Positions 11,556 through 30,770 of a stretch of DNA of 64,000 nucleotides are shown here, in pieces. The notes under the pieces were generated by a model. The model worked only from the letters and a program-made list of their open reading frames with translations. It was not told the DNA's origin and searched no databases. The position numbers and the translations under genes are program-made. Every line of letters starts with the position of its first letter. Within the stretch, counting starts at the first letter, position 1. The stretch lies in contig NZ_CM001441.1 in NCBI RefSeq assembly GCF_000244895.1, forward strand, positions 372,001 to 436,000, given 5' to 3'. Source of the stretch: Desulfosporosinus youngiae DSM 17734. GTDB lineage: Bacteria; Bacillota; Desulfitobacteriia; Desulfitobacteriales; Desulfitobacteriaceae.

Positions 11556-11575
11556 TCAAACTGTATTTTCCAAGA

Positions 11576-11891: not shown

Positions 11892-11962
11892 ATATAGTTA
11901 GATGTCGGCGGCATAAGTTTACGTGGATTTTATCTAAGTAGAAAATAGTGGAGGTAAAGAAG

Positions 11963-12598
11963 ATGGCAAGTTATTCAGAATTAGCGCAAAGCGTAGTAAA
12001 AGGCAATGAAGGTCAAGTAAAAGAACAAGTTAATGCCCTCGTGGCAGCGGGCAATAACCCTATGGAAATTATCAACGAAGGATTAATTGCGGGGATGAAT
12101 ATTGTGGGTCCTCGCTTTAAAGCGGGAGATATGTTTGTTCCGGAAGTTCTCATGTCGGCACGGAGTATGGCTGCAGGGGTTGAGATTGTAAAACCGTTAA
12201 TTGCTGATGGAGACATGAAAAGTCAGGGTAAAGTAATTATTGGCACTGTTAAAGGCGACTTACATGATATTGGCAAGAATCTTGTAGGAATGATGGTTGA
12301 AAGCAGCGGTTTGGAGGTCGTTAATCTGGGAGTGGATATTTCAGCAGACACATTTGTAGCGGCGGTTAAAGAACATAACCCTGATGTGGTTGCACTCTCT
12401 GCCTTATTGACAACGACCATGGCAAATATGAAGGATACGATTGAGGTATTAACGGAAAATGGATTAAGAGACAAAATTAAGATTATCGTTGGCGGAGCTC
12501 CTGTTTCTAAGGAATTTGCGGATTCCATTGGTGCTGATGGCTTTGCCCCTGATGCTGCTTCTGCTGCTGATCTGTGCAAAGAATTAATTGCGAAATAG
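11963..12598 (+). CDS. MtbC/MttC-type corrinoid protein
   Basis: A 211-residue methyl-carrier protein. The N-terminal four-helix cap domain (residues about 1-85) is followed by a B12-binding Rossmann domain with GTVKGDLHDIGKNL, in which Asp-x-His-x-x-Gly supplies the lower histidine ligand to cobalt, and with ALLTTTMANM and IIVGGAPVS. The start is at MASYSELAQ because GGAGGTAAAGAAG is the ribosome binding site. It would accept the methyl group from the MttB homologue encoded at 13434 and pass it to the methyltransferase encoded at 12610. It is the first gene of the long operon behind a sigma-54 promoter. Confidence 0.9.
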   Translation: MASYSELAQSVVKGNEGQVKEQVNALVAAGNNPMEIINEGLIAGMNIVGPRFKAGDMFVPEVLMSARSMAAGVEIVKPLIADGDMKSQGKVIIGTVKGDLHDIGKNLVGMMVESSGLEVVNLGVDISADTFVAAVKEHNPDVVALSALLTTTMANMKDTIEVLTENGLRDKIKIIVGGAPVSKEFADSIGADGFAPDAASAADLCKELIAK

Positions 12599-12609
12599 GA
12601 GATAAAAAA

Positions 12610-13413
12610 ATGCTTATTGTTGGAGAATTGATTAATACCAGTCGAAAGGCGATTAAGCCTGCTGTTGAGAGTCGGGACGCCGCCTATATTCAGAGTATTG
12701 CTCAGCAACAAGTAGACGCGGGAGCGAACTATGTTGATGTTAATTGCGGGACCATGGTTTATAACGAAGAGGAGACTATGGCCTGGTTAGTGGAAACGAT
12801 TCAGCAAAAAGTGACGGCCCCCTTATGTATTGACAGTCCGAATCCAAAGGCACTTGAAGCTGGGCTTTCCTTAGCCAAAAATGGACAGCCAATGATTAAT
12901 TCAATTACGGGTGAAAAGGAACGCTATGAGACTATTCTTCCTTTGATACTTAAGTATAAACCTAAAGTCGTAGCACTTTGTATGGATGATACCGGTATGC
13001 CAGAGACTGCTGAGCAGCGCTTAAAGATCGCTTTTAAATTAATTGGTGATTTGGCAGCAGCCGGGGTACCTGAAGACGATATTTATATTGACCCCTTAGT
13101 AAAGCCTGTAAGTACTGGGGATACTGCGGGAATGGAAGTCCTCGAAACGATTTATGGAGTTAAACAAAAATATCCAAAGGTCCATGGGATTTGTGGCTTG
13201 AGTAATGTCTCCTATGGATTACCGAATCGCAAGGTTCTTAATCATGCTTTCATGATCCAAACCATGACTATGGGAATGGATGGATATATTCTTGATCCGC
13301 TCGATAAGACCATGATGGGTTTTGTACATGCATCAAAGGCATTGCTCGGCAAAGACGCTTACTGCATGGAATATTTAGTCGCTCACCGTAACGGTCTATA
13401 CGAAACAAAATAG
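12610..13413 (+). CDS. Methyltetrahydrofolate:corrinoid methyltransferase (pterin-binding type)
   Basis: A 267-residue TIM-barrel protein of the AcsE/MetH pterin-binding family (MtqA-like). The start MLIVGELINTSRKAI follows AGGAGA, and an earlier in-frame start would lie inside the preceding gene. Family motifs seen are GANYVDVNCGT, PLCIDSPNP, NSITGE and the C-terminal GLSNVSYGLPNR. In demethylation systems such proteins move the methyl group from the methylcob(III)amide protein to tetrahydrofolate, producing methyl-H4folate for the Wood-Ljungdahl pathway. The second methyltransferase locus in this window uses an unrelated MtrH-type enzyme for the same job. Confidence 0.88.
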   Translation: MLIVGELINTSRKAIKPAVESRDAAYIQSIAQQQVDAGANYVDVNCGTMVYNEEETMAWLVETIQQKVTAPLCIDSPNPKALEAGLSLAKNGQPMINSITGEKERYETILPLILKYKPKVVALCMDDTGMPETAEQRLKIAFKLIGDLAAAGVPEDDIYIDPLVKPVSTGDTAGMEVLETIYGVKQKYPKVHGICGLSNVSYGLPNRKVLNHAFMIQTMTMGMDGYILDPLDKTMMGFVHASKALLGKDAYCMEYLVAHRNGLYETK

Positions 13414-13433
13414 AAGTTGATGGGGGTAAAAAA

Positions 13434-14882
13434 ATGGCTCGCAATTTAAGCGCTCGAATTCTAAGTGCTGAAGAAGTTGAATTTCTAAAAGAGAAAATCC
13501 AGGTCTTGCTTGAAACTAAAGGCATTCATATTGAGCATCCTGAGGTCATGGAGATATTGAAAAAAGCAGGAGCTATTGTATCGGAAGAAACAGGTTCTGT
13601 AAAATTCCCTAAGGCTCTTTATGAAGAAGCATTAAAAGCAGCGCCGCGTGAGTTTACGCTTGCCGGTATCGATCCGAAAAATGATATGAAATTCCCTCAT
13701 CCGGAAGGATCGTTTTATGTCAGAACCAACACCGGTGGTATGTATTATCTAACTGAAGAGGGCGAGTATCGCAACATCGTTCTTGATGATGTTGCGGAAT
13801 TTACCCGGCTCGCTAATGCATTGCCCAATGTTAACTATTGGTCGTTGCCATCAACGGATCCTGTCGATTTCCCGGCTGAGACGATTGACATTCATACCCT
13901 GAATACAGTCTTAAGGAATACCACAAAACACGGATGGGTGCAACCTTATGAAGCCGAAAACATCAAATATTTGATTGAAATGGCAGCCGCGGTCGTTGGG
14001 GGAAAGGAAGAACTTCGCAAACGTCCTATCATCAGTGCGATCTGCTGTTCAGTACCCCGTTTGACCTACAAATATATGGATATGAACATTATTTATGAGT
14101 GCTGTAAGGCCGGCGTTCCTCTCCAACCTTGTGCATTGCCTGCTGCAGGGGCTAATGTACCGATTACTCCATCAGGTTTAGCTTTGATGGCCGCCGCAGA
14201 TGTTGTGGCGATGATCGTTATGGCTCAGATTATTGCTCCCGGACATCCTTGTGTTGCAACCCCATTACTCTTTGAAATGGATATGCTGACAACCAATACG
14301 ACTCAAGCCACCATGTCCACGACAATGGGCCGCATGATAGCTATGCAGCTCTTTAAAGAAGGATATGGTATCCCTGTTCACACCTATGCTACAGGAACGG
14401 ATAGTTCTACATTAGACGCCCAGGCGGGATTTGAGGCAGCTTCCTTAAGTCATATGGTGGCTTTGTCCGGTGGTTCTGTTCTTGGCGGAGCCGGACAAGT
14501 CGAGACAGCTAAAACAATTAGCCCGCTTCAATTAATTATCGATAATGATGTCTTTGGCATGGTTAAACAACTTAAAGCCGGTCTTGAAGTGAATGAAGAA
14601 ACGATTGCCTGGGATGACATTCAAGCCATGACCTACCAAGATAGCTTTGTGGATAAGATGCATACCTTTAATCATTTCAGGGATGGCTATCGGGCAAAAA
14701 CCTTTACTCGTGATTCCAGAACGACCTGGGCTGAAAAGGGCTGCAAGGATCTTGCTGCACGGGCCAAAGAACAATATCAGATCATCAAAGAAAACTATGA
14801 GCCCGTTACACTGACGAAAGAAGTAGCCGATGCTTTGGATGCTATTGTCGCACGCGCTGACCGCGAACTTGGTCGTAAGTAA
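13434..14882 (+). CDS. MttB-family (non-pyrrolysine) methyltransferase, proposed trigonelline demethylase
   Basis: A 482-residue member of the MttB superfamily without an in-frame amber codon, so it belongs to the pyrrolysine-free group that demethylates quaternary amines such as glycine betaine. Family features include a DAQAGFEAA motif near residue 330, the region that follows the pyrrolysine position in true MttB. It is only distantly similar to the second MttB homologue encoded at 58145, so the two probably have different substrates. The gene stands directly before the nicotinate dehydrogenase genes in one transcript. From that I infer that its substrate is N-methylnicotinate (trigonelline) or a close analogue. 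The family call is firm; the substrate is inference. Confidence 0.85.
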   Translation: MARNLSARILSAEEVEFLKEKIQVLLETKGIHIEHPEVMEILKKAGAIVSEETGSVKFPKALYEEALKAAPREFTLAGIDPKNDMKFPHPEGSFYVRTNTGGMYYLTEEGEYRNIVLDDVAEFTRLANALPNVNYWSLPSTDPVDFPAETIDIHTLNTVLRNTTKHGWVQPYEAENIKYLIEMAAAVVGGKEELRKRPIISAICCSVPRLTYKYMDMNIIYECCKAGVPLQPCALPAAGANVPITPSGLALMAAADVVAMIVMAQIIAPGHPCVATPLLFEMDMLTTNTTQATMSTTMGRMIAMQLFKEGYGIPVHTYATGTDSSTLDAQAGFEAASLSHMVALSGGSVLGGAGQVETAKTISPLQLIIDNDVFGMVKQLKAGLEVNEETIAWDDIQAMTYQDSFVDKMHTFNHFRDGYRAKTFTRDSRTTWAEKGCKDLAARAKEQYQIIKENYEPVTLTKEVADALDAIVARADRELGRK

Positions 14883-14897
14883 GTATTAACCATACAA

Positions 14898-14956
14898 GGC
14901 TCTTAATGTGTTCTTCCTAAAAACTTAAAAATAGGCTATGGAACACATTAAGAGTC
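14898..14956 (+). other. Intercistronic hairpin between the methyltransferase and ndhF
   Basis: CTCTTAATGTGTTC (14900-14913) is perfectly complementary to GAACACATTAAGAG (14941-14954), and two further outer pairs extend it. No T-tract follows. It lies in the only gap of more than about 50 bases in the 17-gene run and separates the demethylation module from the nicotinate module. It may adjust RNA stability or read-through between them. Confidence 0.7.
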
Positions 14957-14979
14957 ACTACTTTATAGGGTGGGTTACT

Positions 14980-15855
14980 ATGCCAGAATGCAGTGTATAT
15001 TACCAACCAGAATCTATCTCAGATGCCGTGAAGTATTTGGCAAGCGCTGATAAAAGGTTAAAACCCTTAGCAGGCGGAACAGATATTGTCCCAGCTATGC
15101 GAAAGGGCGAAATGAACGTCGATGGATTAGTTGACTTATCAAAGATTCCAGGCCTTCGAGAAATTAATATAGATGATAATGAACTTAAACTAGGAAGTTT
15201 GTGCACGTTTGCGCAGATTGAAAAATCCCTTTTGATTCAAACCCAGGTGCCGCTTCTAGCGCAGGCCGCAGGTGCAGTCGGTTCACCGCAAATACGTAGT
15301 TTGGGGACCATTGGCGGAAATATTGCCAATGCTTCGCCTGCGGCTGATACGGTTACAGCATTTGTGGCTTTAGATGCCAAGGCAAGGCTGGAGTCAACGC
15401 GGGGAACGCGAAGTGTTCCTGTCAGTGAGTTATTATGTGGGGTTGGCAAAACCAATATTTCCCGAGATGAAATAATCGCAGAAATAAGGTTTCAAATACC
15501 TTCCGAAAATAGTCAATCAGGCTTTATTAAGTTAGGGCGTCGGAAAGCTTTAGCGATTGCCCGGATGAATCTAGCCATAATTATAACAGAACATGACGGG
15601 CTTATTGATTTTGCCCGTGTAAGTTTAGGTGCAGTCGGCCCTAATCCGAGTCGGAATACCAGTCTGGAGGAATTTCTGATTGGGCAAAAGCCTTCAGAGT
15701 CACTAATCGATAGTTTTGCGCGGTTTGCAGGTGAAGAAGTTTCGCGAATGCTCGGTTCACGGGCATCAGCCGCTTATAAATGTGAGGCGGTTAAGGGTAT
15801 TGTTCGGGATTTATCCAGCCGATTGTTCTTAGGTAATGAGCAGGTGGTGATTTAA
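14980..15855 (+). CDS. ndhF: Nicotinate dehydrogenase FAD subunit
   Basis: A 291-residue FAD-binding subunit of the xanthine dehydrogenase family. The start is at MPECSVYYQPES after AGGGTGG; the earlier ATG at 14938 lies in the hairpin arm. FAD-binding motifs are LAGGTDIVPAMRKGE and, further on, IRSLGTIGGNIANASPAADT. With NdhS, NdhL and NdhM it forms the enzyme that hydroxylates nicotinate to 6-hydroxynicotinate, passing electrons from the molybdenum site through the iron-sulfur subunit to FAD and then NADP. The four-gene order F-S-L-M is the one known in E. barkeri. Confidence 0.88.
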   Translation: MPECSVYYQPESISDAVKYLASADKRLKPLAGGTDIVPAMRKGEMNVDGLVDLSKIPGLREINIDDNELKLGSLCTFAQIEKSLLIQTQVPLLAQAAGAVGSPQIRSLGTIGGNIANASPAADTVTAFVALDAKARLESTRGTRSVPVSELLCGVGKTNISRDEIIAEIRFQIPSENSQSGFIKLGRRKALAIARMNLAIIITEHDGLIDFARVSLGAVGPNPSRNTSLEEFLIGQKPSESLIDSFARFAGEEVSRMLGSRASAAYKCEAVKGIVRDLSSRLFLGNEQVVI

Positions 15856-15856
15856 T

Positions 15857-16351
15857 ATGGCACAGTATCATCTCGAAATGACGGTCAATGGAAATTCAGT
15901 CGCTCTCGATATCGATCCGGGACTTCGTTTGCTGGATGTTTTACGTGATTGCTTACATTTAACGGGGACTAAAGAAGGCTGCAGTGAAGGCGAATGTGGC
16001 GCTTGTTCTGTTATTCTGGATGGTGAATTAGTGGACTCCTGTTTAGTTTTTGCTCCTCAGGCCTCAGGCCGGGAAGTTATAACCATTGAAGGGGTGGCGC
16101 GGAATGGGGAATTAGATTATCTGCAACAAGCTTTTTTAGATGCGGGCGCTGTCCAATGTGGATATTGCACCCCGGGAATGATTCTTGCTGCAAAAGTTTT
16201 ACTTGACCGTAATCCCCATCCTACGCGTCAGGAAATTTTGAAGGCTATATCGGGTAATATTTGCCGCTGTACAGGTTATACCAAGATGGTGCAAGGAGTT
16301 GAATTAGCCGCAGCGAGTAAAGAGGCGAAGGAGGGTGCTGCCCGTGCCTGA
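15857..16351 (+). CDS. ndhS: Nicotinate dehydrogenase [2Fe-2S] subunit
   Basis: A 164-residue protein with two [2Fe-2S] domains: a plant-ferredoxin-like site CSEGECGACSVILDG with a fourth Cys in DSCLVFA, and the helical-domain site QCGYCTPGMI...CRCTGYTKMV. It relays electrons from the molybdopterin subunits to NdhF. It begins 2 bases after the ndhF stop and overlaps ndhL by 8 bases, so the subunits are translationally coupled. Confidence 0.92.
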   Translation: MAQYHLEMTVNGNSVALDIDPGLRLLDVLRDCLHLTGTKEGCSEGECGACSVILDGELVDSCLVFAPQASGREVITIEGVARNGELDYLQQAFLDAGAVQCGYCTPGMILAAKVLLDRNPHPTRQEILKAISGNICRCTGYTKMVQGVELAAASKEAKEGAARA

Positions 16352-17615
16352 ATTCAGTGTTATCGGTAAATCGGTGCAACGACTTGATGGTCAGGAAAAG
16401 GTGACCGGAGCAACTCAGTTTGCGGCGGACCTTGATCTTCCGGGAGCACTTTGTCTTAAAGTACTGCGGAGTAACGTTGCCCATGCTCATATTAAGACGA
16501 TCGATGTGGATGAGGCTCTCCAAGTACCTGGAGTTGTCGGAATATTCACCCATAAGGATATTGACGGAATTAACAGTTACGGGATTATTGTTAAAGATCA
16601 GCCCGCCTTAACAAATAAAGTTCGTTTTAAAGGGGATGCTCTGGCCTTAGTAGCAGCTGAAAATGAAGCAAGCGCTAAAGAAGCTCTTAGACTGATAAAA
16701 GTGGAATTAGAAGAGCTGCCGGCGGTTTATGACGTTTGGAGCGCCATGAATGATGCAGCGCCGGCGATTCACGAAAACGGCAACATTCTTACAGTAAGTA
16801 AGATTAAAAAGGGAGATGTGGAATCCGCCCTTAATCAGGCTGCAGTTATTATTTCGAGAAACTATACAACTCAGAGGATAGAACATTGCTACATCGAAAC
16901 CGAAGCCGGTGTCGCTTATATGGACGGAGATAGTCTCGTCATAAAAGTTTGTACACAGAATCCCCATTATGACCGGCGTGATGTCGCTCGTGTGTTAGGT
17001 ATTCCAATGAACAAGGTCAGGGTCATCCAAACGGCTACCGGGGGCGGCTTCGGGGGGAAACTTGATATTACGATCCAGTGTTTTCTGGGCTTGGCTGCCC
17101 TGAAACTGAGACGTCCCGTAAGAATGACCTATGACCGTCATGAGTCCTTCATCGCCAGCGGTAAACGTCATCCGTTTTTTATTGATTACACGACGGCGGC
17201 AGATAAAGAAGGAAAACTCCTGGCAGTCAAAGTCAGAATTGTGGGGGATACCGGTGCCTATGCTTCCTATGGACCTGCTACGTTAATTCGGGCAGCCGTC
17301 CATGCGACAGGGCCTTATGAAGTGCCTAATGTGGATATTGAAGGGGCTTGTGTGTACACCAATAATCCGTTCAGTGGGGCAATGAGGGGTTTTGGTACTC
17401 CCCAATTGGCTTTTGCAAGCGAAAGTCAGTTAGACATTGTTGCCCGTGCTTTAAATATAAGTCCGATTGAAATCCGCCGCCGCAATATAGTCCATGAAGG
17501 TTCGATTACGGCAACAGGACAGAAGCTCGAAGGAAGTATCGGAATCAGTAAGACGTTAGAGGCTGCCTGGGATAAGGCTCTCCAGGTTATGCCTGGCCTG
17601 GAGGGACGAAAGTAA
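16344..17615 (+). CDS. ndhL: Nicotinate dehydrogenase large molybdopterin subunit
   Basis: The N-terminal half of a xanthine dehydrogenase-type molybdenum subunit, 423 residues. The start is GTG 16344 (MPEFSVIGKSV) with AAGGAGGG 8 bases upstream, rather than GTG 16335. It has the hammerhead domain, TGGGFGGKLD and GAMRGFGTPQ, both contacting the molybdopterin. The protein stops where the family normally continues into its second half, which here is the separate gene ndhM. This split is the hallmark of the E. barkeri nicotinate dehydrogenase, an enzyme that carries labile selenium but no selenocysteine; no in-frame TGA is present here either. Confidence 0.9.
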   Translation: MPEFSVIGKSVQRLDGQEKVTGATQFAADLDLPGALCLKVLRSNVAHAHIKTIDVDEALQVPGVVGIFTHKDIDGINSYGIIVKDQPALTNKVRFKGDALALVAAENEASAKEALRLIKVELEELPAVYDVWSAMNDAAPAIHENGNILTVSKIKKGDVESALNQAAVIISRNYTTQRIEHCYIETEAGVAYMDGDSLVIKVCTQNPHYDRRDVARVLGIPMNKVRVIQTATGGGFGGKLDITIQCFLGLAALKLRRPVRMTYDRHESFIASGKRHPFFIDYTTAADKEGKLLAVKVRIVGDTGAYASYGPATLIRAAVHATGPYEVPNVDIEGACVYTNNPFSGAMRGFGTPQLAFASESQLDIVARALNISPIEIRRRNIVHEGSITATGQKLEGSIGISKTLEAAWDKALQVMPGLEGRK

Positions 17616-18598
17616 TGAAAAAGCGCGGTTACGGTATGGCTAACATGTGGTATGGAATAGGAAATACGGCGGCCAATAATCCATCCGGTGCCTTTGTTGA
17701 TATTTTAGATGATGGCACAGTGATTGTTTTAACGGGGTGTGCCGATATGGGCCAGGGCTCAACGACGGCTTTAGCCCAGATAGCCGCTGAGACTGTTGGG
17801 GTAAGGGTTGAAGATGTTGTGGTTGTTTCAGGGGATACGGGAGTTTCCCCGGACGCAGGGGCCTCATCTGCCTCGCGGCAGACTTACATTTCGGGAAATG
17901 CGGTCCGTTTGGCAGCCGAAAAGGCACGTGAGCAAATCATAGCTAAAGCGGCTCAGATGTTAAATACAACGATCGATTCGGTGAGCCTGAAGAGCGGTCG
18001 AGTATGGAATGGAGAGGAACAAACGAGCTTAACCGTCAAAGAAATGCTTGCTCAGTGCCGCGGTGAAGGAGTATTGACCCTTGGTCATGGTTACTTTAAC
18101 CCTGCAACGACGAAACTCGATCCGGAAACCGGACACGGGAAACCCTTTGCTACGTATGCTTTTGCGACTCAGGTTGCGGAAGTCATCGTCGATACGGAAA
18201 CAGGGGTAGTCGAGGTTACCAAAATCGTAGCGGCCCACGATGTGGGAAGAGCCATAAACCCCCAAAGTGTGGAAGGGCAAATTGAAGGCGGTTGTGCCAT
18301 GGGCTTGGGTTATGCCTTAGTAGAGGAAGTCATCCTAAAAGACGGAGTCATTAAAAACCCCGAGATGTCTACTTACCTTGTCCCTACGTCAATGGATGTT
18401 CCGGAAATCTATCCGATCATTATTGAAGAATTAGAAGCAAGCGGCCCTTATGGCGCAAAGGGGGTAGGGGAACCAGCCTTAGTACCGACGGCCGCGGCTA
18501 TTGCCAATGCGGTCAGCGATGCTTTAGGTGTTCGCATCTACGATCTGCCAATGACGCCTGAGCGGGTCGTAGCCACGATCAAGGCGGCTCAGAAGTAG
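17615..18598 (+). CDS. ndhM: Nicotinate dehydrogenase medium molybdopterin subunit
   Basis: The C-terminal half of the molybdenum subunit, 327 residues. It has GCADMGQGSTTALAQI, which contacts the cofactor, and GAKGVGEPALVPTAAAI, whose Glu is the conserved catalytic base of the family. Its ATG overlaps the TAA of ndhL by one base, indicating coupled translation of the two halves. The reading frames differ between the two genes, so this is a real gene boundary and not a sequencing error within one frame, and it matches the known two-subunit arrangement. Confidence 0.92.
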   Translation: MKKRGYGMANMWYGIGNTAANNPSGAFVDILDDGTVIVLTGCADMGQGSTTALAQIAAETVGVRVEDVVVVSGDTGVSPDAGASSASRQTYISGNAVRLAAEKAREQIIAKAAQMLNTTIDSVSLKSGRVWNGEEQTSLTVKEMLAQCRGEGVLTLGHGYFNPATTKLDPETGHGKPFATYAFATQVAEVIVDTETGVVEVTKIVAAHDVGRAINPQSVEGQIEGGCAMGLGYALVEEVILKDGVIKNPEMSTYLVPTSMDVPEIYPIIIEELEASGPYGAKGVGEPALVPTAAAIANAVSDALGVRIYDLPMTPERVVATIKAAQK

Positions 18599-18631
18599 TC
18601 ATTGCTATGAAACTTAGAGGAGGTTAGACGA

Positions 18632-19792
18632 ATGTCTGTAATTGCACTTACAAATATCGGAAAGCTCGTCACCGGCAATATTCAAAAACCTCTGGGTGAG
18701 GAAACTACGATTGTCCTTCAGGACGGATTAATCGCTAAGATGGGTAATTCAGATATTCTTCAAGATTACACCGTCGAAAAAGTAATCGATGTTAACGGTA
18801 TGACAGTAACTCCGGGTCTGATCGACTCACATGTACACACTACCCTCGGTGATTATTCACCGCGGCAAAAAACTCAGGACTATCTCGATGGCTCGGTTCA
18901 TGGTGGTGTAACCACATTTATCTCAGCCGGAGAATGCCATACGCCGGGCCGTCCAAAAGATCCTGCCGGTACGAAAGCATTAGCTATCCTTGCTCATAAA
19001 GCCTATGCTAACTTACGTTCAACCGGACTGAAAGTTCATGGCGGAGCCGTCATTCTGGAAAAGGGACTGACTGAGGGGGATTTTGCTGAAATGGCTAAAG
19101 AAGGGGTCTGGCTGGTTGGCGAAATCGGTTTGGGAAGTGTAAAAAAACCAGAAGACGCCATCCCCATGGTGAAATGGGCAAAAGAAAACGGGATGAAAAT
19201 CGCTATGCATACCGGAGGAACCTCTATCCCCGGCAGTTCAACAGTCTCTGCAGCCGATGTAGCCGCCGTTCAACCCACGGTTGTGTCCCATATTAACGGC
19301 GGCCCGACAGCGATCGCCCCTTCCGAAGTAGAAAAACTGATCAATGAGACGGATCTGGCGTTAGAGATTGTTCAATGCGGAAATCCCAAAATCGCCGATT
19401 TTACGGTCCGCAAGCTAACCGAGAAGGATCAATTAAACCGGGTAATTATCGGAAATGATTCCCCTTCTGGTACCGGAATTATTCCTTTAGGTATATTAAG
19501 AACGGTTTGCTCTATCTCCTCCATGTCGGATGTGGCACCGGAAAAAGCGATCGCTATGGCCAGCGGCAATACAGCAAGTACGTTTGGCTTAAATACCGGG
19601 ATAATTGCTGAAGGAAAAGAAGCTGATTTAGTGGTAATGGATGCTCCTATGGGCTCAGTCGGTGAAGATGCCCTAGAGGCTTTAGCGGCGGGTGATCTGC
19701 CGGCAGTTGTCATGGTATTGGTTGATGGCACAATCCGAGTCAATAAAAGCCGCAATACACCACCCTCAAGTCGCAGCTGCAAAATAAAATAG
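18632..19792 (+). CDS. ena: Enamidase
   Basis: An amidohydrolase-superfamily enzyme of 386 residues, the size of the E. barkeri enzyme. It has the metal-binding HxH in TPGLIDSHVHTTLGD, further metal ligands in AMHTGG and SHINGG, and the conserved acidic residue in IGNDSPSGTG. The enzyme is a bifunctional Fe-Zn hydrolase that opens 1,4,5,6-tetrahydro-6-oxonicotinate, releasing ammonia and (S)-2-formylglutarate. It lies between ndhM and hnr, with GAGGAGG before the start. A related imidazolonepropionase-like function cannot be excluded from sequence alone, but the context is decisive. Confidence 0.88.
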   Translation: MSVIALTNIGKLVTGNIQKPLGEETTIVLQDGLIAKMGNSDILQDYTVEKVIDVNGMTVTPGLIDSHVHTTLGDYSPRQKTQDYLDGSVHGGVTTFISAGECHTPGRPKDPAGTKALAILAHKAYANLRSTGLKVHGGAVILEKGLTEGDFAEMAKEGVWLVGEIGLGSVKKPEDAIPMVKWAKENGMKIAMHTGGTSIPGSSTVSAADVAAVQPTVVSHINGGPTAIAPSEVEKLINETDLALEIVQCGNPKIADFTVRKLTEKDQLNRVIIGNDSPSGTGIIPLGILRTVCSISSMSDVAPEKAIAMASGNTASTFGLNTGIIAEGKEADLVVMDAPMGSVGEDALEALAAGDLPAVVMVLVDGTIRVNKSRNTPPSSRSCKIK

Positions 19793-19814
19793 ATTTTGAA
19801 CTGGGGGCGATTAA

Positions 19815-22128: not shown

Positions 22129-22179
22129 GTTGGATTTAAATAGAAATGGGACTAAAAAGAACGTTATGGAGGGATAAAA

Positions 22180-22758
22180 GTGGAAATTCGTAAGATTGTT
22201 ACGGTTGTCGAGGAAACTCATAAAGATGGTGTTAAAGCCCTTGATAAAGCAACCCGTAAAGCTGCGGCAGTGGCTGTGATCAAAAATCCATTTGCCGGCC
22301 AATATGCGGAAGATTTAACGGAGTTAATGGAAGTCGGAGAACAATTGGGCGAGTTGTTGGCGGCACGGGCGGTCCAAGCTTTGGGACTATCCGGTGGAGA
22401 AGCACACAGCTATGGCAAGGGGGCTATTGTTGGGGAACAGGGCGAATTGGAGCATGCCGCGGCAATCCTTCATCCCCGCTTAGGCAAGCCTTTCCGGGAG
22501 CAGCTCGGCGGAGGTAAAGCTATTATCCCTTCCGCTAAAAAGATGGGTGGTATAGGCACCGCTTTAGATGTACCGGTTCACTATAAGGATGCCGCTTTCG
22601 TCCGGACTCACTATGACGCGATGGAAGTCAGGGTACCCGATGCTCCCCATGCAGATGAGATTTTGGTAGCACTGGTTGTAACAGATTCCGGTCGCCCGCA
22701 TCCACGCATTGGTGGGTTACAGCGTGAAGAGATCAAAGGGGAAGATGGACTAAGATAA
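22180..22758 (+). CDS. Amino acid synthesis family (DUF1185-like) protein
   Basis: A 192-residue soluble protein resembling the 'amino acid synthesis' family (PF06684). Seen motifs are LSGGEAHSYGKGAIVGEQGELEHAAAI in the middle, KMGGIGTALDVPVHYKDAAFVRTHYDAM and the C-terminal VVTDSGRPHPRIGGL. GTG start after GGAGGG. The family name does not reflect a proven activity. It is not one of the known nicotinate fermentation enzymes, yet it stands between hnr/UPF0280 and hgd in the same transcript with tight spacing, so an accessory or side-product role in the pathway is likely. Confidence 0.7.
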   Translation: MEIRKIVTVVEETHKDGVKALDKATRKAAAVAVIKNPFAGQYAEDLTELMEVGEQLGELLAARAVQALGLSGGEAHSYGKGAIVGEQGELEHAAAILHPRLGKPFREQLGGGKAIIPSAKKMGGIGTALDVPVHYKDAAFVRTHYDAMEVRVPDAPHADEILVALVVTDSGRPHPRIGGLQREEIKGEDGLR

Positions 22759-22773
22759 TTGGAGGAAAATAAT

Positions 22774-23661
22774 GTGCGTGTAGGATTTATCGGTATTGGT
22801 GCGATGGGGAAGCCTATGGCGGCCAATATTTTAAAGGCTGGCTATGGATTAGTTGTCAATGATGTTAATGCCGAAGCCGTGAAAGAATTAGTCTCCCTCG
22901 GTGCCGACAGTGCAGCGACTCCGCAAGAATTAGCCCGGTCGGTGGATGTGGTGATTACGATGCTGCCGAATGGAGGGATTGTGGAACAGATTCTATTAGG
23001 GGCACAGGGAGTTTTTGCCGGAGCTAAGCCGGGATTTGCCATTATTGATATGTCCAGCGTTTCGCCGGGTTTTACCCGCAAGATGGCTAAGCTTGCTGAA
23101 GAAAGAGAGATAGGCTACTTAGATGCGCCTGTGAGCGGTGGTGTTAAAGGAGCCGCAGAAGGCACTCTGACAATTATGCTTGGAGGGAATGCGGAACTGG
23201 TTGCCAAGTATCGTCCTTTACTCGAGGTTATGGGCAAGAAACTATATCATGTTGGTGAAGTAGGTGCCGGGGATTCTGTTAAGATCGTCAATAACTTATT
23301 ATTGGGGATTAATATGACAGCGGCGGCCGAGGCGTTTGCTTTGGGCACAAAACTAGGGATTGCCCCACAGGTTTTACTCGATGTTATCAGTGTGAGCTCG
23401 GGAAACAGTTATGCGCTAACGGCTAAAATGCCGAACTTTGTATTCAAGAGGAATTTTGCACCGGGGTTTGCCGTTGATTTACAGTATAAGGATTTGGAAC
23501 TGGCCACCCAAACGGCCAAAGAACTAAACGTCCCTTTAATGCTGACCAACATTGCTCAACAAGTTTTTGAACAAGCAAGGGCTAAAGGTTTAGGCCGTGA
23601 GGATATTTCGGCCGTCATTAAATTATTGGAAGAAATGTTGGATATTGAAGTTAAAGCCTAG
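22774..23661 (+). CDS. hgd: 2-(Hydroxymethyl)glutarate dehydrogenase
   Basis: A 295-residue member of the 3-hydroxyisobutyrate/6-phosphogluconate dehydrogenase family. The start is GTG 22774 with GGAGG 8 bases upstream, giving VRVGFIGIGAMGKPMAANI with the NAD-binding GxGxMG. The substrate signature DAPVSGGVKGAAEGTL and the catalytic Lys in GDSVKIVNNLL are present. It reduces (S)-2-formylglutarate to (S)-2-(hydroxymethyl)glutarate with NADH, following enamidase in the pathway. A generic beta-hydroxyacid dehydrogenase is the alternative; the context supports hgd. Confidence 0.87.
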   Translation: MRVGFIGIGAMGKPMAANILKAGYGLVVNDVNAEAVKELVSLGADSAATPQELARSVDVVITMLPNGGIVEQILLGAQGVFAGAKPGFAIIDMSSVSPGFTRKMAKLAEEREIGYLDAPVSGGVKGAAEGTLTIMLGGNAELVAKYRPLLEVMGKKLYHVGEVGAGDSVKIVNNLLLGINMTAAAEAFALGTKLGIAPQVLLDVISVSSGNSYALTAKMPNFVFKRNFAPGFAVDLQYKDLELATQTAKELNVPLMLTNIAQQVFEQARAKGLGREDISAVIKLLEEMLDIEVKA

Positions 23662-23702
23662 ATTAAGGCCTATAAGGACTAAACATGAGCTGGGGGATTT
23701 TT

Positions 23703-25124
23703 ATGGAGAAGATTCAAGAAATGGTAAAAGCGAAAGGATTTCAATTCGGCAGTTTGTCCTTGGGCCAGACGGTCGAGATTGCTGCAGAGTCCGGACTCCG
23801 GGTAAGTGATGTCGTAATAGCCGAAGCCATGTTTGAGAATTATATGACAAAGGAAGAGGTCATGGATGCGGTCTTAAATTCCTTCGCCCATAATCTTTAC
23901 GCTTTAAACTCGGGCATTACGACCGGATCGAGTTTCCTACTTGGTGAAGTTCCGCAGGAACTGGCGGAACGTGATTTTGCCAAGCGGTTAACCGATGATG
24001 ATTTGGTTAATAAAATAGTTGTTTATACCTTAGGTGCGCAAGTGGGAAATCATACCTGCGGGTTGCAGCCTTGTGCAGGGACGGGTGATTCTTGTACTTA
24101 TACGGGACTCTATCGGGCTCTTAAAGACGTTATTGAGGATAAAGAAGAATTAGCCAGGATAGTCGCCGTGATGCTTAAAGTAGGAACCATCTTCCGCGCG
24201 GGCAAAACTTCAACCGGATGCAATATGGAAGGGTTCGGAGCCGGCGCCGCTGCGACAGCAGCTACGCTTGTCGAGTTTTATCAAGGCACTCCGGAAGCAA
24301 TGGCCAAGGCTGTTGTACTGGCCTTGTCACCAACCATAGGGAATCCCTGTACGCCACGGGTGATGGTTGCGGGACTCTGTGCAACTCATATCGGCGGGGG
24401 AGTAGTTATCGGGAATCTCGCGGCCAATCTGGCCCTTAAGACCAATATTCCCGTCAATGTACCGGTGGATGTTATGATTGCTATGGCGGCTGCCGTTCAT
24501 CCTGTATCAGCGAAACAAATTGTGCCTGTTGTGATTAAGTATATGCAGCCCTTTTTTAAAACCAATCTGGATGTGGAATATTTTGTCGATGAGGGTATTA
24601 AGGACGAAGAGCGGAACGTGATTCAGGAAACCATGACCCTTGCTTTAAATGAGGCCCAAGCTTTAGCGGCGAAAGCGAATTCTATTATTAAGCCCTTTGG
24701 CGAAGCCGTCGTTGGCGGAAGCAGTCAAGCGGTGGGTTCACCGACTAATACGGCACGGATTGCTCATGCTTTGACAAAAGGTGAGATTAAGGGCGTTAAG
24801 ATCGACTTGTATCCCGAACTTTTTGCCCGCCGGGGGATCAATGTCCCCGGTATTCTCATGGGAGCTGTCTTAGGAGCAAGCACGGATAATGGCAAGGCTT
24901 ATAAAGATATTATACGCCAGGTGCGTGAGAAAAAGATTAAGGTTGAAATTAACCAAGTGAATGAATCTCAATTACAGCGCGTAACAATCGAAGCGACAAA
25001 ACAGGGGTCCATGGTTGAAGCCCTTAATCGTGGGGGGGCGCGCCTCGCACTTAAAAAAGCAACCCCTTCTTTGGAAGAGGCTTACAAAGCTGCCCAACGT
25101 CTGGGGATTGTTCTTGTCGATTGA
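23703..25124 (+). CDS. hmd: 2-(Hydroxymethyl)glutarate dehydratase, serine dehydratase-like
   Basis: A single-chain protein of about 473 residues related to iron-sulfur L-serine dehydratase. Cysteine-bearing motifs that could hold a [4Fe-4S] cluster are NHTCGLQPCAGTGDSC, TGCNMEGFGAGAAAT and GNPCTPRVMVAGLC. GGGGG is 6 bases before ATG 23703; ATG 23685 is an alternative start. It is predicted to remove water from 2-(hydroxymethyl)glutarate to give 2-methyleneglutarate. In E. barkeri this step was also predicted from a serine dehydratase-like gene. It lies between hgd and mgm, in the same order as the reactions. Confidence 0.82.
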   Translation: MEKIQEMVKAKGFQFGSLSLGQTVEIAAESGLRVSDVVIAEAMFENYMTKEEVMDAVLNSFAHNLYALNSGITTGSSFLLGEVPQELAERDFAKRLTDDDLVNKIVVYTLGAQVGNHTCGLQPCAGTGDSCTYTGLYRALKDVIEDKEELARIVAVMLKVGTIFRAGKTSTGCNMEGFGAGAAATAATLVEFYQGTPEAMAKAVVLALSPTIGNPCTPRVMVAGLCATHIGGGVVIGNLAANLALKTNIPVNVPVDVMIAMAAAVHPVSAKQIVPVVIKYMQPFFKTNLDVEYFVDEGIKDEERNVIQETMTLALNEAQALAAKANSIIKPFGEAVVGGSSQAVGSPTNTARIAHALTKGEIKGVKIDLYPELFARRGINVPGILMGAVLGASTDNGKAYKDIIRQVREKKIKVEINQVNESQLQRVTIEATKQGSMVEALNRGGARLALKKATPSLEEAYKAAQRLGIVLVD

Positions 25125-25148
25125 TTTGGTTAAGAGGAGGCGTACTAA

Positions 25149-26993
25149 ATGCAGGAGCGGACAAAGCAAATTATCCGCGAAGACTATGAACGGGTACAAG
25201 CTTATGAACGGGTTTTCGGAGTAGAAATGCCCAAGGTTCTCGAGGATGGTTCTATTAGTGGTTTGCCGGAGCCCTTTCCCCGGGTTGTCAATGGGGTTGA
25301 ACGAAGTGGTTACCGCATCGCTGAATTAGGGCGGCTTGCCGCTCAGTCGGGGATACCCGTCCAAAACCCGATTCTAGGCAGAAACACTGCGGAAGAAACC
25401 TATAAAGAGTCCTTGGAAATGTACAAGGTTGCTGAGGAGTTGGGGATAACCCTATTTCAATTTGTGCATTCCGAGGCAACACGACATATTGATCCCTTAA
25501 ATGGGGCGGAGCTGATTGAGCAATCAAGGGGTAAGGGCGGAATTACTCCGCTTGGGGAACGTGAATTTGTGGCTGCGGGCGGCGGATCGAAACACCCCTT
25601 GCGCATCAATGCCACGGGAGATACGCCTCATTTATCGATTATCAATTCTTTAATGGCAGGATTTGATGGGACGGACATCGGCCCGGTTATCCATGTCCAC
25701 TTCGGAGGTCGCGGGATTCACGATTATAAGACAAAAGTTATTAATGGCTATAAAGCCTTACAGATTTGCGCTGAAAACAATATTTTTGTGCAAACAGACT
25801 CCCATAAGCACCTTAATAATATTGGCGGAACCGATGGCATGGCTTTAGCAATGTGTTTACTTGCCGAAGGATTGGCTATTCATGCGGGTCTGCCCAGGGG
25901 GCTAAGCGCAATTCAAATGAATGTCGGCGGGATTAATCTTCTGGCCGATTTAGCGGTGATGAGGGCCTTTAAAAAGGTGATGTGGAGTGAATTCCTAATT
26001 GTTGTACCAGAAACCTTCCAAAACCCGCCGGCTGATCTTATTGCTGAGCAGGCCCACTTTGCCCGCATGGCCTTAAGCGCCAAACTTGGCGGTGCGAACT
26101 TCTACCGGCCTAAAGCAGCAGAAAATGTGGGGATTCCGACCGGTGCATCAATGGCCAAGGCCATCTGGGCAACTCAAAACGTATTTGAAAACACGGCCTC
26201 TATTACGATTAATGATCCGGAAATCGATCGCCGTGAAGCTGAGATACTTGATGAGGCAATGGCTGTATTAGCAAGGGTTTTCGGACTTAAGGAGCTTCAT
26301 CCTGAAGAGATCAGGCCGGAGTTCTGGTTAAAGTATGGGGATATGGAGCTGGTCGATCTCATTGTAGCGGCCGGTAAAAAGGGAATCCTTGATGCTCCTA
26401 ATGCCGGGGGATGGGATTTAAAACGAGGCGTAAAGACCCATCGGGATAAAGATGGCATCAAGCGGTATGTGCCTGGTTATGGACCCGTTGGAATCCCTCA
26501 GGATAAATTAGCGTTTACCCAAGAGTCGATAAGAGTCAAGGGGAAACCGGTAATAACTCAAAAAGAAAAGGTTCTTTTAGCGACAGTGGGAGCTGATGCT
26601 CACGTTGTAGGGATTAACATGATTCGTGAGGCATTTGAACAAGCAGGATATGAAGTGATCTATCTGCGCGGAATGAATTTGCCGGAGACCGTAGCTGAGG
26701 TCGCTGCAGAGGCAAAAGTTGATGTCGTGGGAGTCAGCAACCTGTTGGGCTTGGGGCAAATCCTCTTTAATCGCGTGGAACAACGACTTAAAGAACTGGG
26801 GATCCGGGATGAGGTCATTTTAATGGGTGGTGGCCGAATCGCGGAGAAAGAAGAAGAACATGCTCAGGTCCAAGAGAAGATTAAAAACGAAGGCACCCGT
26901 TTCCTCGGTGTAGACGGATTCTTCGGACCGGGTACTGATCCCCGGGAAGCTATTATTTGGGTTCAGGAAAGAGTGGAAGGGAGACGAAAATAA
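25149..26993 (+). CDS. mgm: 2-Methyleneglutarate mutase (adenosylcobalamin-dependent)
   Basis: A 614-residue fusion of a TIM-barrel mutase domain and a C-terminal B12-binding domain (from about residue 475). The B12 signature is complete: [12 protein letters not shown] (Asp-x-His-x-x-Gly), [12 protein letters not shown] (S-x-L) and ILMGGGRI (GG). The barrel resembles glutamate mutase E and the kindred carbon-skeleton mutases. It isomerises 2-methyleneglutarate to (R)-3-methylitaconate. Its length equals the E. barkeri protein as I remember it. The nearby mutL-like gene probably supplies a reactivating partner. It is followed after one base by mii. Confidence 0.92.
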
Positions 26994-26994
26994 A

Positions 26995-28134
26995 ATGAGT
27001 GAACAACGTCGGATCCGCTGCACAATTTTGCGCTGTGGCACAAGTAAAGGGATTTTTCTCATGGAGAATGATTTGGCAACGGATTCTCAAAAACGGGATC
27101 AAGAAATTCTCGCGATTTTCGGAAGCCCTGACGTAAGACAAATCAATGGATTAGGAGGAGCGGATCCTTTAACAAGCAAGCTTGCCATTATTGCTCCCTC
27201 CACACGCCCCGATGCCGACGTCAACTATACGTTCGGTCAAGTGAGTTTCACGGATACCTTCGTGGATTATTCCGGGAACTGCGGCAATATTTCTTCCGGG
27301 GTGGGTCCCTTTGCTATTGATGAAGGCCTGATCTGGGCAGTAGAACCAATTACGACCGTGCGCATTCACAATACAAATACGGGAAAGATTTTAGTTGCTG
27401 AGGTCCCTGTGAGAAATGGAAAGGCTCAAGTAGCGGGAGATTATCAAATTGCCGGGGTTCCGGGCAGCGGGGCTAAAATCATGTTGGACTTTGCCGGCAC
27501 AGCGGGCTCGGCCACCGATAAGGTATTACCCACGGGTAAAGCCAGAGATACCTTGAATATTGAAGGGTTCGGGCAATTAGAGGCCTCGATCGTAGATGTT
27601 GCCAACCCAATGGTTTTTGTCAGAGCGAAAGATCTGGGATTAACGGGAATTGAAACACCTGCAGAAATTAATGGCAACCAAGAAATGTTGGGTCTCTTAG
27701 AGAAAATTCGCGGCAAGGCGGCAACCATGATTGGTATGGCTAAAGATGAAGCGGATGCCTTGAAGCACAGTCCCGCTTTCCCGATGATTGCTTTCGTGAG
27801 TGAACCTCAGGATTACGCCGATTTTACGACGGGAAGGATGATTCGTGCGGATCAAGTCGATTTCGTATCCCGGCTGATGTATATGCAAGTCATGCACAAG
27901 ACCTACGCAGGGACAGGAACGACCTGTACCGGTGCAGCGGCGAAAATTCCGGGGACAATTGCCTATGAAGTCTGTCAGGCAAAATCCTCGGAAGTTCGTA
28001 TCGGTCACCCTGCGGGAGTCATTGAGATCGAGGTCGAAGTTGAAGCGAAGGCCGCTGAACTACAGGTCAAAAGAGCTGCTTTCGGTCGGACGGCGCGGCG
28101 CATTATGGATGGATATGTCTACATCTTAGAATAG
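26995..28134 (+). CDS. mii: 3-Methylitaconate delta-isomerase
   Basis: A PrpF-family protein of 379 residues with the N-terminal RCTILRCGTSKGIFLMENDL, the central YSGNCGNISSGVGPFAIDEGL, and the late TYAGTGTTCTGAAAKIPGT, all family signatures with conserved cysteines and the diaminopimelate-epimerase-like fold. It shifts the double bond of 3-methylitaconate to give 2,3-dimethylmaleate. The start ATG lies one base after the mgm stop. PrpF proteins acting on aconitate are close relatives, but the position between mgm and dml fixes the call. Confidence 0.9.
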   Translation: MSEQRRIRCTILRCGTSKGIFLMENDLATDSQKRDQEILAIFGSPDVRQINGLGGADPLTSKLAIIAPSTRPDADVNYTFGQVSFTDTFVDYSGNCGNISSGVGPFAIDEGLIWAVEPITTVRIHNTNTGKILVAEVPVRNGKAQVAGDYQIAGVPGSGAKIMLDFAGTAGSATDKVLPTGKARDTLNIEGFGQLEASIVDVANPMVFVRAKDLGLTGIETPAEINGNQEMLGLLEKIRGKAATMIGMAKDEADALKHSPAFPMIAFVSEPQDYADFTTGRMIRADQVDFVSRLMYMQVMHKTYAGTGTTCTGAAAKIPGTIAYEVCQAKSSEVRIGHPAGVIEIEVEVEAKAAELQVKRAAFGRTARRIMDGYVYILE

Positions 28135-28145
28135 GAGAGAACAAC

Positions 28146-29570
28146 ATGATCGAGGTAAGCTTTCTTGTTTATGATGTTGGGAGCACCTATACCAAACTAT
28201 CCGCCTTTAATCGAAATGGAAATTTGTTAGAGTTTGTTGGGCGTTCTCAAGCACCGACGACTGTACAAAATATAGAAATCGGCTTAAATAACGCAAGAAG
28301 TAATCTCGAGAAGGTTTTGGGCTCAGGTCCAATTTCGGCCCGGTTTACTCTGGCCACAAGTTCGGCAGCAGGGGGCCTGCGAATGGTGGCGATGGGATAC
28401 ATGCCGCGTGTGACTGCGAAGGCGGCCAAAGAAGTCGCAATGAGTGCCGGAGCCAGAGTTTTAGAGATAATTTCTTTTGAAACGCCGGTTGATTTTCGCT
28501 TACAAATTCTCAAAGAAATCAAACCCGATATTATTTTGCTGGCAGGCGGCACCGATGGAGGGGACCAGGAATCCCTTTTTGAGAATGCAAAAGTGATTGT
28601 TCAAGCGGAATCCTCCGGGGTCGTGATCATCGCGGGGAATAATGAAGCTCAGGCAAAGGTTGAGGAAATCCTTGAGTCCGGCGGCATTCGGACGCAACGT
28701 GTCCCTAATGTCATGCCCACCATTCATGAACTAAAGGTCAAACCCGCCCGTGAGGCGATTCATCAGGAGTTTATCCGTCAAATTACCCGGGCAAAAGGGT
28801 TAGGGGCGCTCTTAGAGAAGGTATCCAACCGCAAAGTAATTCCTACCCCTGGCGCGGTTTTGATGGCCGCGGAACTTTTGGCGATGGGCACTCCGGAGCA
28901 GGATGGTTTAGACGGGCTCTTAGTTATTGACCTTGGGGGGGCTACCACGGATGTTCACTCCGTACTTCCGAGCTTAGCGAAATTAAGCAATGAAGAAAAG
29001 GGCCTTGTGATTTCCAATGAAAAGCAGGTTTCTTATCGTACGGTCGAAGGAAACTTAGGTTTAAGAGTGAGTGCGACGGGAATCGTCGAAACTGCCGGCG
29101 CGAGCGGGGTTTTAGCTAAAGTTGGCTTAGAGGGTGAAGAGTTAAGCAAAGAACTAATAAATTATGTACATTTTTTAGAAAGTGAACCTGAGCATCTAAG
29201 CAGCGGCGATCAGGAGCACATTTTTGATAAGGCACTGGCAATTACGGCGATTGAACTGGCTTTAAAACGGCATGCAGGGTATTTGGCCCAGGGTTTTGAT
29301 CCGGTAATGGGCATTATTCCGGGCTCCCCGGTCGGGCGGGATTTGCGAAGGGTTGAACGAGTGATTATTGTGGGCGGAATTTTCGCCCATGCTTCGGAAG
29401 AACAAAGCCGGGAAATCGTCAAAAAGGCTCTCGCCAATCCGGGAATTTCGTTATTGCCCCATGATCCCGCGATTATCGTCGATAAGAACTATCTTCTTTA
29501 CACGGTAGGGGCTATCGCCCAGGACCACGCCAACGATGCTTTAGCGTTAGCGCTGGATTTTTTTAACTAA
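28146..29570 (+). CDS. GlmL/MutL-family mutase-associated ATPase
   Basis: A 474-residue ASKHA-fold protein with a phosphate-1 loop DVGSTYTKLSAFN at the N terminus and the second nucleotide motif LVIDLGGATTDVHS near residue 260, plus IVGGIFAHA late in the protein. It is like the MutL/GlmL proteins encoded beside glutamate mutase, which probably reactivate the mutase when its cobalamin is damaged. Here it lies two genes after mgm and would serve methyleneglutarate mutase. This accessory is not among the nine named enzymes of the E. barkeri pathway. The exact activity is inferred from family and position. Confidence 0.85.
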   Translation: MIEVSFLVYDVGSTYTKLSAFNRNGNLLEFVGRSQAPTTVQNIEIGLNNARSNLEKVLGSGPISARFTLATSSAAGGLRMVAMGYMPRVTAKAAKEVAMSAGARVLEIISFETPVDFRLQILKEIKPDIILLAGGTDGGDQESLFENAKVIVQAESSGVVIIAGNNEAQAKVEEILESGGIRTQRVPNVMPTIHELKVKPAREAIHQEFIRQITRAKGLGALLEKVSNRKVIPTPGAVLMAAELLAMGTPEQDGLDGLLVIDLGGATTDVHSVLPSLAKLSNEEKGLVISNEKQVSYRTVEGNLGLRVSATGIVETAGASGVLAKVGLEGEELSKELINYVHFLESEPEHLSSGDQEHIFDKALAITAIELALKRHAGYLAQGFDPVMGIIPGSPVGRDLRRVERVIIVGGIFAHASEEQSREIVKKALANPGISLLPHDPAIIVDKNYLLYTVGAIAQDHANDALALALDFFN

Positions 29571-29594
29571 TAAGAGAATTAAGGGGAGTTTGAA

Positions 29595-30461
29595 ATGAGT
29601 AAAGGGAAAGTATTAAGAGAACTGATCGCAGCAAAGGAGATCCTCGTTGCACCGGGAGCACATGATGCCTTGACTGCGAAAATTATTGAAAAGAGCGGTT
29701 TTAATGCCGTTTATATGACCGGTTATGGTCAGGCTGCCAGTCACTTAGGAATGCCCGATGTTGGCTTATTGAGCATGACAGAAATGCTTTCCAGAGCTAA
29801 TAACTTTGCCAGTGCGGTAAAGATACCCGTTATTGCTGATGGAGATACAGGGTTTGGCAACGCTGTTAATGTGATGCGTACGGTCAGACAATATGAAATG
29901 GCCGGTGCAGCAGCAATTCAATTGGAAGATCAGGTAGCACCGAAACGATGTGGACATATGATAGGGCGGCAGGTTATTTCCAAGGAGGAAATGGTGGGTA
30001 AAATCAAGGCTGCAGTTGAGGCACGTGAGAATCCGGACTTCGTTATTATTGCCCGTACAGACTCCCGAACCGTTCATGGAATTGAAGAAGCCATTCAAAG
30101 AGGGAAAGCTTATCAAGAAGCCGGTGCTGATGTCTTGTTCATTGAGTCGCCGGAATCGGTTGAAGAAATGAAAGCAATAACATCAAGTTTTGATATACCT
30201 GTACTTGCCAATATGGTTGAGGGTGGGCGGACCCCGCTTCTTTCGTCCAAAGAGCTTGAGGAGCTGGGTTTTAACCTGGTGATTTTCCCGACGGCTTCCA
30301 CCTATATTACAGCCCAGGCAATGAAAAACTTGATGGAGGAAATCAGGGACAAGGGAACAACTAAGGATCTAGTGGGTCAAATGATTCCATTTGAGGAATT
30401 TAATCAATTTATTGGCTTAGCAGAAATACGTCAATTGGAGTCAAAATATATATTAGATTAA
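29595..30461 (+). CDS. dml: 2,3-Dimethylmalate lyase
   Basis: A 288-residue PEP mutase/isocitrate lyase superfamily enzyme. It has DGDTGFGNAVNVMRTV (metal-binding region), LEDQVAPKRCGHMIG with the catalytic Cys of the K-R-C-G-H motif, and IARTDSRTVHGIEEAI. It cleaves (2R,3S)-2,3-dimethylmalate to pyruvate and propionate, the last step of nicotinate fermentation. Methylisocitrate lyase is the close alternative, but there are no methylcitrate-cycle genes here. It is the last gene of the 17-gene transcript. Confidence 0.9.
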   Translation: MSKGKVLRELIAAKEILVAPGAHDALTAKIIEKSGFNAVYMTGYGQAASHLGMPDVGLLSMTEMLSRANNFASAVKIPVIADGDTGFGNAVNVMRTVRQYEMAGAAAIQLEDQVAPKRCGHMIGRQVISKEEMVGKIKAAVEARENPDFVIIARTDSRTVHGIEEAIQRGKAYQEAGADVLFIESPESVEEMKAITSSFDIPVLANMVEGGRTPLLSSKELEELGFNLVIFPTASTYITAQAMKNLMEEIRDKGTTKDLVGQMIPFEEFNQFIGLAEIRQLESKYILD

Positions 30462-30736: not shown

Positions 30737-30770
30737 TGGAACCCTCTAAAACCCAGGATATTCTCAAATC

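Follow-up and report, generated by a model that had tools for sequence, protein, structure and literature searches.

Why would a methyltransferase of the MttB superfamily stand at the head of a gene cluster for nicotinate fermentation? The question is raised by a 64,000-nucleotide stretch of DNA (G000:C1:372001-436000, called the window, whose own positions are used below) from G000, a 5.66 Mb single-contig genome of the genus Desulfosporosinus. Seventeen genes run here on the plus strand, as do all other genes and sites described for the window, from 11948 (GTG start) or 11963 (ATG start) to 30461, and the 16 junctions between them measure -25 to +55 bp. Open reading frames and coordinates bear out an earlier note on this DNA, which had described 17 tightly packed genes on one strand, and family matches agree with its account of the first three as encoding a corrinoid protein, a methyltransferase and an MttB homologue that lacks pyrrolysine (Pyl). 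We consider it likely that the locus is an anaerobic catabolic regulon for trigonelline (N-methylnicotinate) under a sigma-54 activator. Trigonelline is a common betaine of plants and coffee.

The evidence that carries this reading is comparative. A genome search for adjacency between MttB and the nicotinate dehydrogenase (ndh) genes, which the earlier note had asked for, places MttB among nicotinate genes at all seven loci, spread over four families, whose MttB is at least 58% identical to that of the window (58-100%; G000, G005, G021, G012, G044, G368 and G105). Relatives of the enzyme were sought by whole-genome searches, a contig scan with MttB alone having given three. At 69% identity or more, MttB occurs in five of 60 relatives, G000 among them, and a set of 73 genomes of the order yields the same five, after which matches drop to 32-33%; all five belong to the 11 of 60 relatives that possess a full-length 6-hydroxynicotinate reductase, Hnr (Fisher test, 8.5e-5). 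A survey of 398 genomes of the phylum (E 1e-120) adds G368 (65%) and homologues at 46-49% in G105 (two), G166 and G417; in this set MttB (at least 46%) is present in five genomes and Hnr (E 1e-80) in 15, with both in four (Fisher test, 6.5e-6). The 25 genomes of the G417 order add three homologues at 48-49%, and no further ones were detected in 20 genomes of the G368 order or in four of the G105 order. None of the seven loci with homologues at 46-49% shows them among nicotinate genes within the 13-20 kb around each.

MttB precedes the ndh genes in all six loci that show both, five times directly before ndhF; in G368, genes for a sodium/solute symporter (SSS) and MtrH lie between. G105 has a rearranged order (SSS-ena-hnr-UPF0280-PF06684-MttB) bounded at both ends by contig ends, and its MttB beside hnr is partial (58% over 175 residues). 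Congeners carry the same nicotinate operon without MttB.

This variation allows Hnr loci with and without MttB to be compared, namely seven with it and 19 without, 10 of the latter also showing mgm. Presence and absence were scored by tblastn (E 1e-15), because calling of open reading frames (ORFs) let longer spurious ORFs mask several real genes, the MttB of G100 among them. An SSS carrier (at least 55% identical) or a BCCT carrier is found in all six assessable loci with MttB (five SSS, one BCCT) and in none of the 19 without it (Fisher test, 5.6e-6), G005 standing outside this count with broken contigs and no carrier within 19 kb. Four other MttB-bearing loci hold symporter relatives 55-75% identical to that of the window, and two of the 19 loci without MttB hold weaker SSS relatives (26% and 38%). 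The BCCT-family protein, in G021 (PF02028, 546 bits), is encoded upstream of the corrinoid gene; by their family name, BCCT proteins are carriers of betaine, carnitine and choline. Corrinoid and MtrH genes accompany MttB in six of six assessable loci versus one of 19 without it (Fisher test, 4.0e-5), the 5.6 kb contig of G105 being left aside. Both groups include loci with MFS permeases similar to the G001 protein (3/7 with MttB, 7/19 without). As a separate observation, a PTS_EIIC_2 (PF13303) membrane protein (L087:7063-8127 and relatives) is present in 7 of the 19 loci without MttB and in none of the seven with it, and is possibly a nicotinate permease.

The joint appearance of a corrinoid protein, an MtrH-like protein and an SSS or BCCT carrier with MttB suggests the set that a carboxylated quaternary amine would need. 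According to a 2025 paper (PMC12155760), the known quaternary-amine substrates of the MttB superfamily, phosphocholine excepted, bear a carboxylate, which is regarded as a binding determinant. Trigonelline is favoured because it is the direct N-methyl precursor of nicotinate, is itself a carboxylated quaternary amine and fits the carriers. The claim of the earlier note that the MttB homologue demethylates trigonelline thus finds comparative support in the seven loci and their co-occurring genes, from which we infer the substrate.

On this reading, the sodium symporter (or the BCCT carrier in G021) would import trigonelline, and MttB would move its N-methyl group to the Co(I) form of the corrinoid protein, releasing nicotinate. 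The MtrH-like protein would then hand the methyl group to tetrahydrofolate, probably for the enzymes of the Wood-Ljungdahl pathway. Nicotinate would be hydroxylated by NdhFSLM, reduced by Hnr and opened at the ring by Ena, after which Hgd, Hmd, Mgm (with the GlmL reactivase), Mii, DmdAB and Dml would yield propionate and pyruvate.

Properties of the methyltransferase itself are consistent with such a role. MttB (13434-14882) is a member of the superfamily by PF06253 (239.7 bits versus a cut-off of 25) and, having no internal stop, contains no Pyl. It falls short of the Pyl-type trimethylamine methyltransferases (TIGR02369, 335.2 bits versus 525), lacks an amber codon and carries Gly321 at the Pyl position. 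Its AlphaFold model (mean confidence score pLDDT 90.5) has the MttB/MtgB fold, with MtgB and MttB structures as its closest matches (2qne, Z 51.9; 9yce, Z 51.6; 7xcl, Z 51.5) and a root-mean-square deviation of 1.9 over 472 residues on 2qne. The corrinoid protein (11948-12598, ATG at 11963) matches the MtgC-type family NF047996 best (1.9e-72) and TIGR02370 next (8.3e-63), both below their cut-offs; at 243.1 bits versus 370 for NF047996 it is classed as a corrinoid protein, MtgC itself being excluded. The second gene (12574-13413) encodes an MtrH/MtgA-like methyl-corrinoid:tetrahydrofolate methyltransferase (NF005719, 369.9 bits versus 259).

Active-site residues, placed through alignments only, set the enzyme apart further. 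Roles for Pyl334 and Tyr364 in M. barkeri MttB are described in PMC9842639, and glycines (Gly321 and Gly351) occupy these two positions in 12 of 12 full-length members of the branch that were aligned. Other aligned MttBs have Pyl, Leu, Ile, Val or Cys at the first position and Tyr, His or Gln at the second. Judged from the sequence, the two glycines would open the cavity enough for a ring. Arg97, Trp168, Tyr172 and His316 (window numbering) are invariant in the branch. In a tree of 20 rows, made with a quick method, these 12 (six nicotinate-linked, three of the G417 type and three of the G105/G166 type) separate from eight paralogues of G000 with a branch support (SH-aLRT) of 100. The eight were drawn from 12 other MttBs of G000, and the window enzyme is 22-30% identical to these eight. 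The genome has 13 MttB-family genes in all. Five of these are interrupted in frame by a stop codon, which is TAG in four, the codon found in Pyl enzymes, and TAA in one.

Several points weigh against this reading. Support for the branch that sets off the six nicotinate-linked MttBs is weak (71), and the active-site residues are common to a sister branch that lies away from nicotinate genes and, in two genomes, beside purine genes, so they are not a mark of trigonelline alone. G021, G012 and G044 have no MtrH beside MttB and instead show one of 51-52% identity after dml. The Fisher tests count kin genomes as independent, and the Hnr stretches are 5.6-55 kb long, so that absence means absence from the stretch compared. 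Nine of the 19 loci without the window-type MttB show no mgm, and therefore not all of them are clusters of the Eubacterium barkeri type. Finally, the MttB that adjoins the nicotinate cluster of G100 (G100:C47) comes from a different lineage, being 26% identical to the window MttB and 45% to another paralogue in G000. G100 is the sole exception with corrinoid and MtrH genes among the 19, and these three genes immediately precede those for the sigma-54 regulator and the nicotinate enzymes. The arrangement may represent an independent recruitment, or chance; it follows that such neighbours can be incidental or that other MttBs have been recruited.

Among the alternatives, the one that survives best is that MttB demethylates a different N-methylated pyridine that enters nicotinate degradation, for example N1-methylnicotinamide, N-methyl-6-hydroxynicotinate or several together. 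It would give the same genomic context, but general scans revealed no nicotinamidase family among the 17 genes (Pfam was run on part of them), the position of MttB ahead of the ndh genes is constant in the six loci showing both, and the BCCT carrier of G021 points to a betaine; we regard this alternative as improbable. A lower probability still attaches to the view that the substrate of MttB is some unrelated quaternary amine (for instance glycine betaine) and that the enzyme is co-regulated only as a supply of one-carbon units or reductant during growth on nicotinate. The number of MttB genes in the genome speaks for it, as does the use of non-aromatic quaternary amines by MttB relatives of known substrate (PMC12155760), whereas the low identity of the window enzyme to the compared paralogues and the finding of MttB at 58% or more solely among nicotinate genes in the genomes searched speak against it. 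Very improbable, in our view, is that operon rearrangement brought MttB and the nicotinate genes together by chance, with no shared function: the link recurs in four families and in more than one gene order and carrier genes co-vary with MttB, abundant as MttB-family genes are in these genomes.

The name hnr and the nicotinate steps given here follow the E. barkeri pathway, and the structures 2vun, 3hrd_B, 3cky and 3g7k are presumably E. barkeri proteins. The earlier note had assigned the whole set to this pathway; the assignment stands by best PDB matches for Ena, NdhM, Hgd and Mii, while for Hnr, Hmd, Mgm and Dml the names come from the kind of family and the place in the cluster. The locus thus encodes a four-subunit Ndh with split L and M, Ena, Hgd and Mii, as in an E. 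barkeri-type cluster, and candidates for Hnr, Hmd, Mgm, DmdAB and Dml that fit in family and position, judged without E. barkeri sequences of these proteins.

Nicotinate dehydrogenase is represented by ndhF (FAD subunit, 14938-15855, XdhB-type family matches below cut-off, and cluster position), ndhS (2Fe-2S subunit, 15857-16351, XdhC-type matches below cut-off), ndhL (N-terminal half of the molybdopterin subunit, 16335-17615, matching the first half of xanthine dehydrogenase large subunits) and ndhM (molybdopterin subunit, 17615-18598; 3hrd_B, nicotinate dehydrogenase, 1.8e-98). NdhM has Tyr at residue 13, as do all 12 NdhM sequences aligned (the window and 11 others), without a residue-by-residue alignment to 3hrd. 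In PMC5746545, Tyr13 of NdhM in the E. barkeri nicotinate dehydrogenase is modelled as the binder of the ring nitrogen, and its presence in the window favours a nicotinate dehydrogenase over a generic xanthine dehydrogenase.

Downstream follow ena (enamidase, 18632-19792; 2vun, 7.9e-163 over residues 2-385) and hnr (19815-21296; ferredoxin-type N-terminus, occurring with ena in relatives). Next come hgd (2-(hydroxymethyl)glutarate dehydrogenase, 22759-23661; 3cky, 4.4e-94), hmd (2-(hydroxymethyl)glutarate dehydratase of the serine-dehydratase type, 23685-25124, from pathway position and a weak TIGR00718 match of 2.4e-10, below cut-off), mgm (B12-dependent 2-methyleneglutarate mutase, 25149-26993, from its B12-binding C-terminus and position), mii (3-methylitaconate isomerase, 26995-28134; 3g7k, 2e-149) and dml (2,3-dimethylmalate lyase, 29595-30461, PrpB/PEP mutase superfamily). 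The name of Dml rests on context because its best PDB match is the petal death protein 1zlp, with the 2,3-dimethylmalate lyase 3fa3 ranking lower. Three further genes inside the 17 had gone unnamed in the earlier description: a UPF0280/ApbE-like gene (21289-22128; PRK04334, 212.3 bits, below cut-off; ApbE, 28.5 bits versus 25.6), a PF06684 gene (22180-22758; 2.9e-74; solved relative 2qtp) and a GlmL/MutL-type mutase reactivase (28146-29570; PF13941, 449 bits). The first two are frequent neighbours of hnr in relatives.

The pathway had also been called complete, which holds for the dimethylmalate dehydratase step only if a dmdAB-like pair at 7502-9325, outside the predicted operon, is counted. 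Its large subunit (7502-8785), a LeuC-type protein of the aconitase family (PF00330, 387 bits; NF001614, 588.6 bits, above cut-off), is a candidate 2,3-dimethylmalate dehydratase by context, and the LeuD-type small subunit (8801-9325) matches PF00694 and TIGR00171 (119.2 bits versus 116.25). A different dmdA, 34-36% identical, lies between hmd and mgm in G021, G012, G044, G368, G001, G003 and G017. This interval holds no dmdA in the window and in G005, so the LeuCD-type pair would have to catalyse the dehydratase step. The pair (7472-9326) is a 97% copy of one near 2,989,000 on G000:C1, whose small-subunit gene is frameshifted and which adjoins genes for an acyl-CoA ligase and a short-chain dehydrogenase/reductase; no leu gene was named among its scanned neighbours. 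The sole other LeuC-type match found is an aconitase.

Control of the locus would fall to a sigma-54-dependent activator with a Fis-type helix-turn-helix (9888-11555; PF00158, PF02954). The window contains seven sigma-54-like matches with at most one mismatch versus 1.97 expected, a number reached in none of 100 shuffles. A single sigma-54 promoter had been proposed; the predicted site of the 17-gene operon was recovered at 11875-11890 (TGGCATGATAATTGCT, one mismatch), and it is one of three at the locus, the others being a -24/-12 site upstream of dmdAB (7295-7310, an exact match to TGGCACNNNNNTTGCW) and a site upstream of the symporter (30877-30892; TGGCATGAAAATTGCA, one mismatch). Homologues of the activator gene precede the clusters of G021, G012, G044 and G368 and those of the MttB-less G001, G003 and G017. 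Similar sites, scored without a chance control, precede the cluster or the carrier in G021, G012, G368, G105 and the same three MttB-less genomes, and the pattern gave no site before the cluster in G044. Scans of 11500-31400 for terminators (32 versus 31.1 in shuffles) and sigma-70 promoters (23 versus 22.1) showed no excess, and counts at shuffle level argue neither for nor against an unbroken transcript of the 17 genes. The symporter genes (31056-32851) belong to the same locus; they comprise a small membrane subunit (31056-31334), which has no family match and is paired with the symporter in G012, G044 and G368, and the symporter proper (31328-32851; PanF/SSS family, below cut-offs), the proposed route of trigonelline uptake.

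The sister branch offers a lead of its own. At G105:C42 (L091, L135), two tandem sister-branch MttBs with corrinoid, MtrH and MtmB homologues neighbour XdhA (NF043082, 1209 bits, cut-off 780), a Transp_cyt_pur permease, a PucR-family regulator, SsnA (637 versus 444) and an 8-oxoguanine-deaminase-like protein (530.4 versus a cut-off of 532). A partly similar locus, G166:C3 (L090, L134), combines corrinoid, MtrH and MtmB homologues with molybdenum hydroxylases (Se_dep_XDH, 764.5, below the cut-off of 830), a Transp_cyt_pur permease and aminohydrolases, XdhA exceeding its cut-off in G105 only. These loci may, as a lead only, serve anaerobic demethylation of N-methylpurines. The broader idea, for which we see an even balance of probabilities, is that the whole branch with two glycines and Arg97, Trp168, Tyr172 and His316 is specialised for demethylating N-methylated aromatic heterocycles. 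Its members would act on trigonelline where they lie in nicotinate clusters, and on N-methylpurines where their neighbours are molybdenum hydroxylases, purine-type permeases and aminohydrolases.

Known systems help to place the proposed route. MtgB presumably works with a corrinoid protein and a methyltetrahydrofolate methyltransferase, like the module here. The MtgB/MtgC/MtgA system of Desulfitobacterium hafniense, which uses glycine betaine (structures 2qne, 9yce), shares the non-Pyl MttB fold, but MtgB is only 25-26% identical to the window MttB over the structural alignment and carries Leu (9yce) rather than Gly at the Pyl position. The window MttB also differs in being embedded in a ring-degradation operon. 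The cluster of E. barkeri described by Alhapel et al. (2006) reportedly contains no MttB module, in contrast to the demethylation module that precedes it here. The aerobic trigonelline route of Acinetobacter baylyi starts from the same compound; according to the work of Perchat et al. (2018), it reportedly depends on oxygen, and the ring is cleaved while the methyl group is still attached. To our knowledge, trigonelline would be the first aromatic or heteroaromatic substrate of the MttB superfamily. MtpB, MtcB, MtyB and MthB of Eubacterium limosum, also members of the superfamily, use acidic quaternary amines (PMC12155760) that are non-aromatic, unlike the heteroaromatic proposed here. E. barkeri nicotinate fermentation presumably supplies the best PDB matches of Ena, NdhM, Hgd and Mii and shares the split NdhL and NdhM (PMC5746545). 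No anaerobic trigonelline route was found in the open-licence literature searched, as judged by title and abstract. A study of methylotrophy in peat (PMC10805028) detected trigonelline and described it as chemically distinct and as an aromatic methylamine that may be a substrate not yet recognised.

The locus supplies a candidate enzyme, partner proteins, a carrier and a regulator for anaerobic trigonelline use. If the reading is correct, it would give the MttB superfamily a new class of substrate, coupled to a known pathway, and would join one-carbon metabolism to fermentation of the vitamin B3 ring in one regulon. It would also predict which anaerobes return trigonelline to nicotinate.

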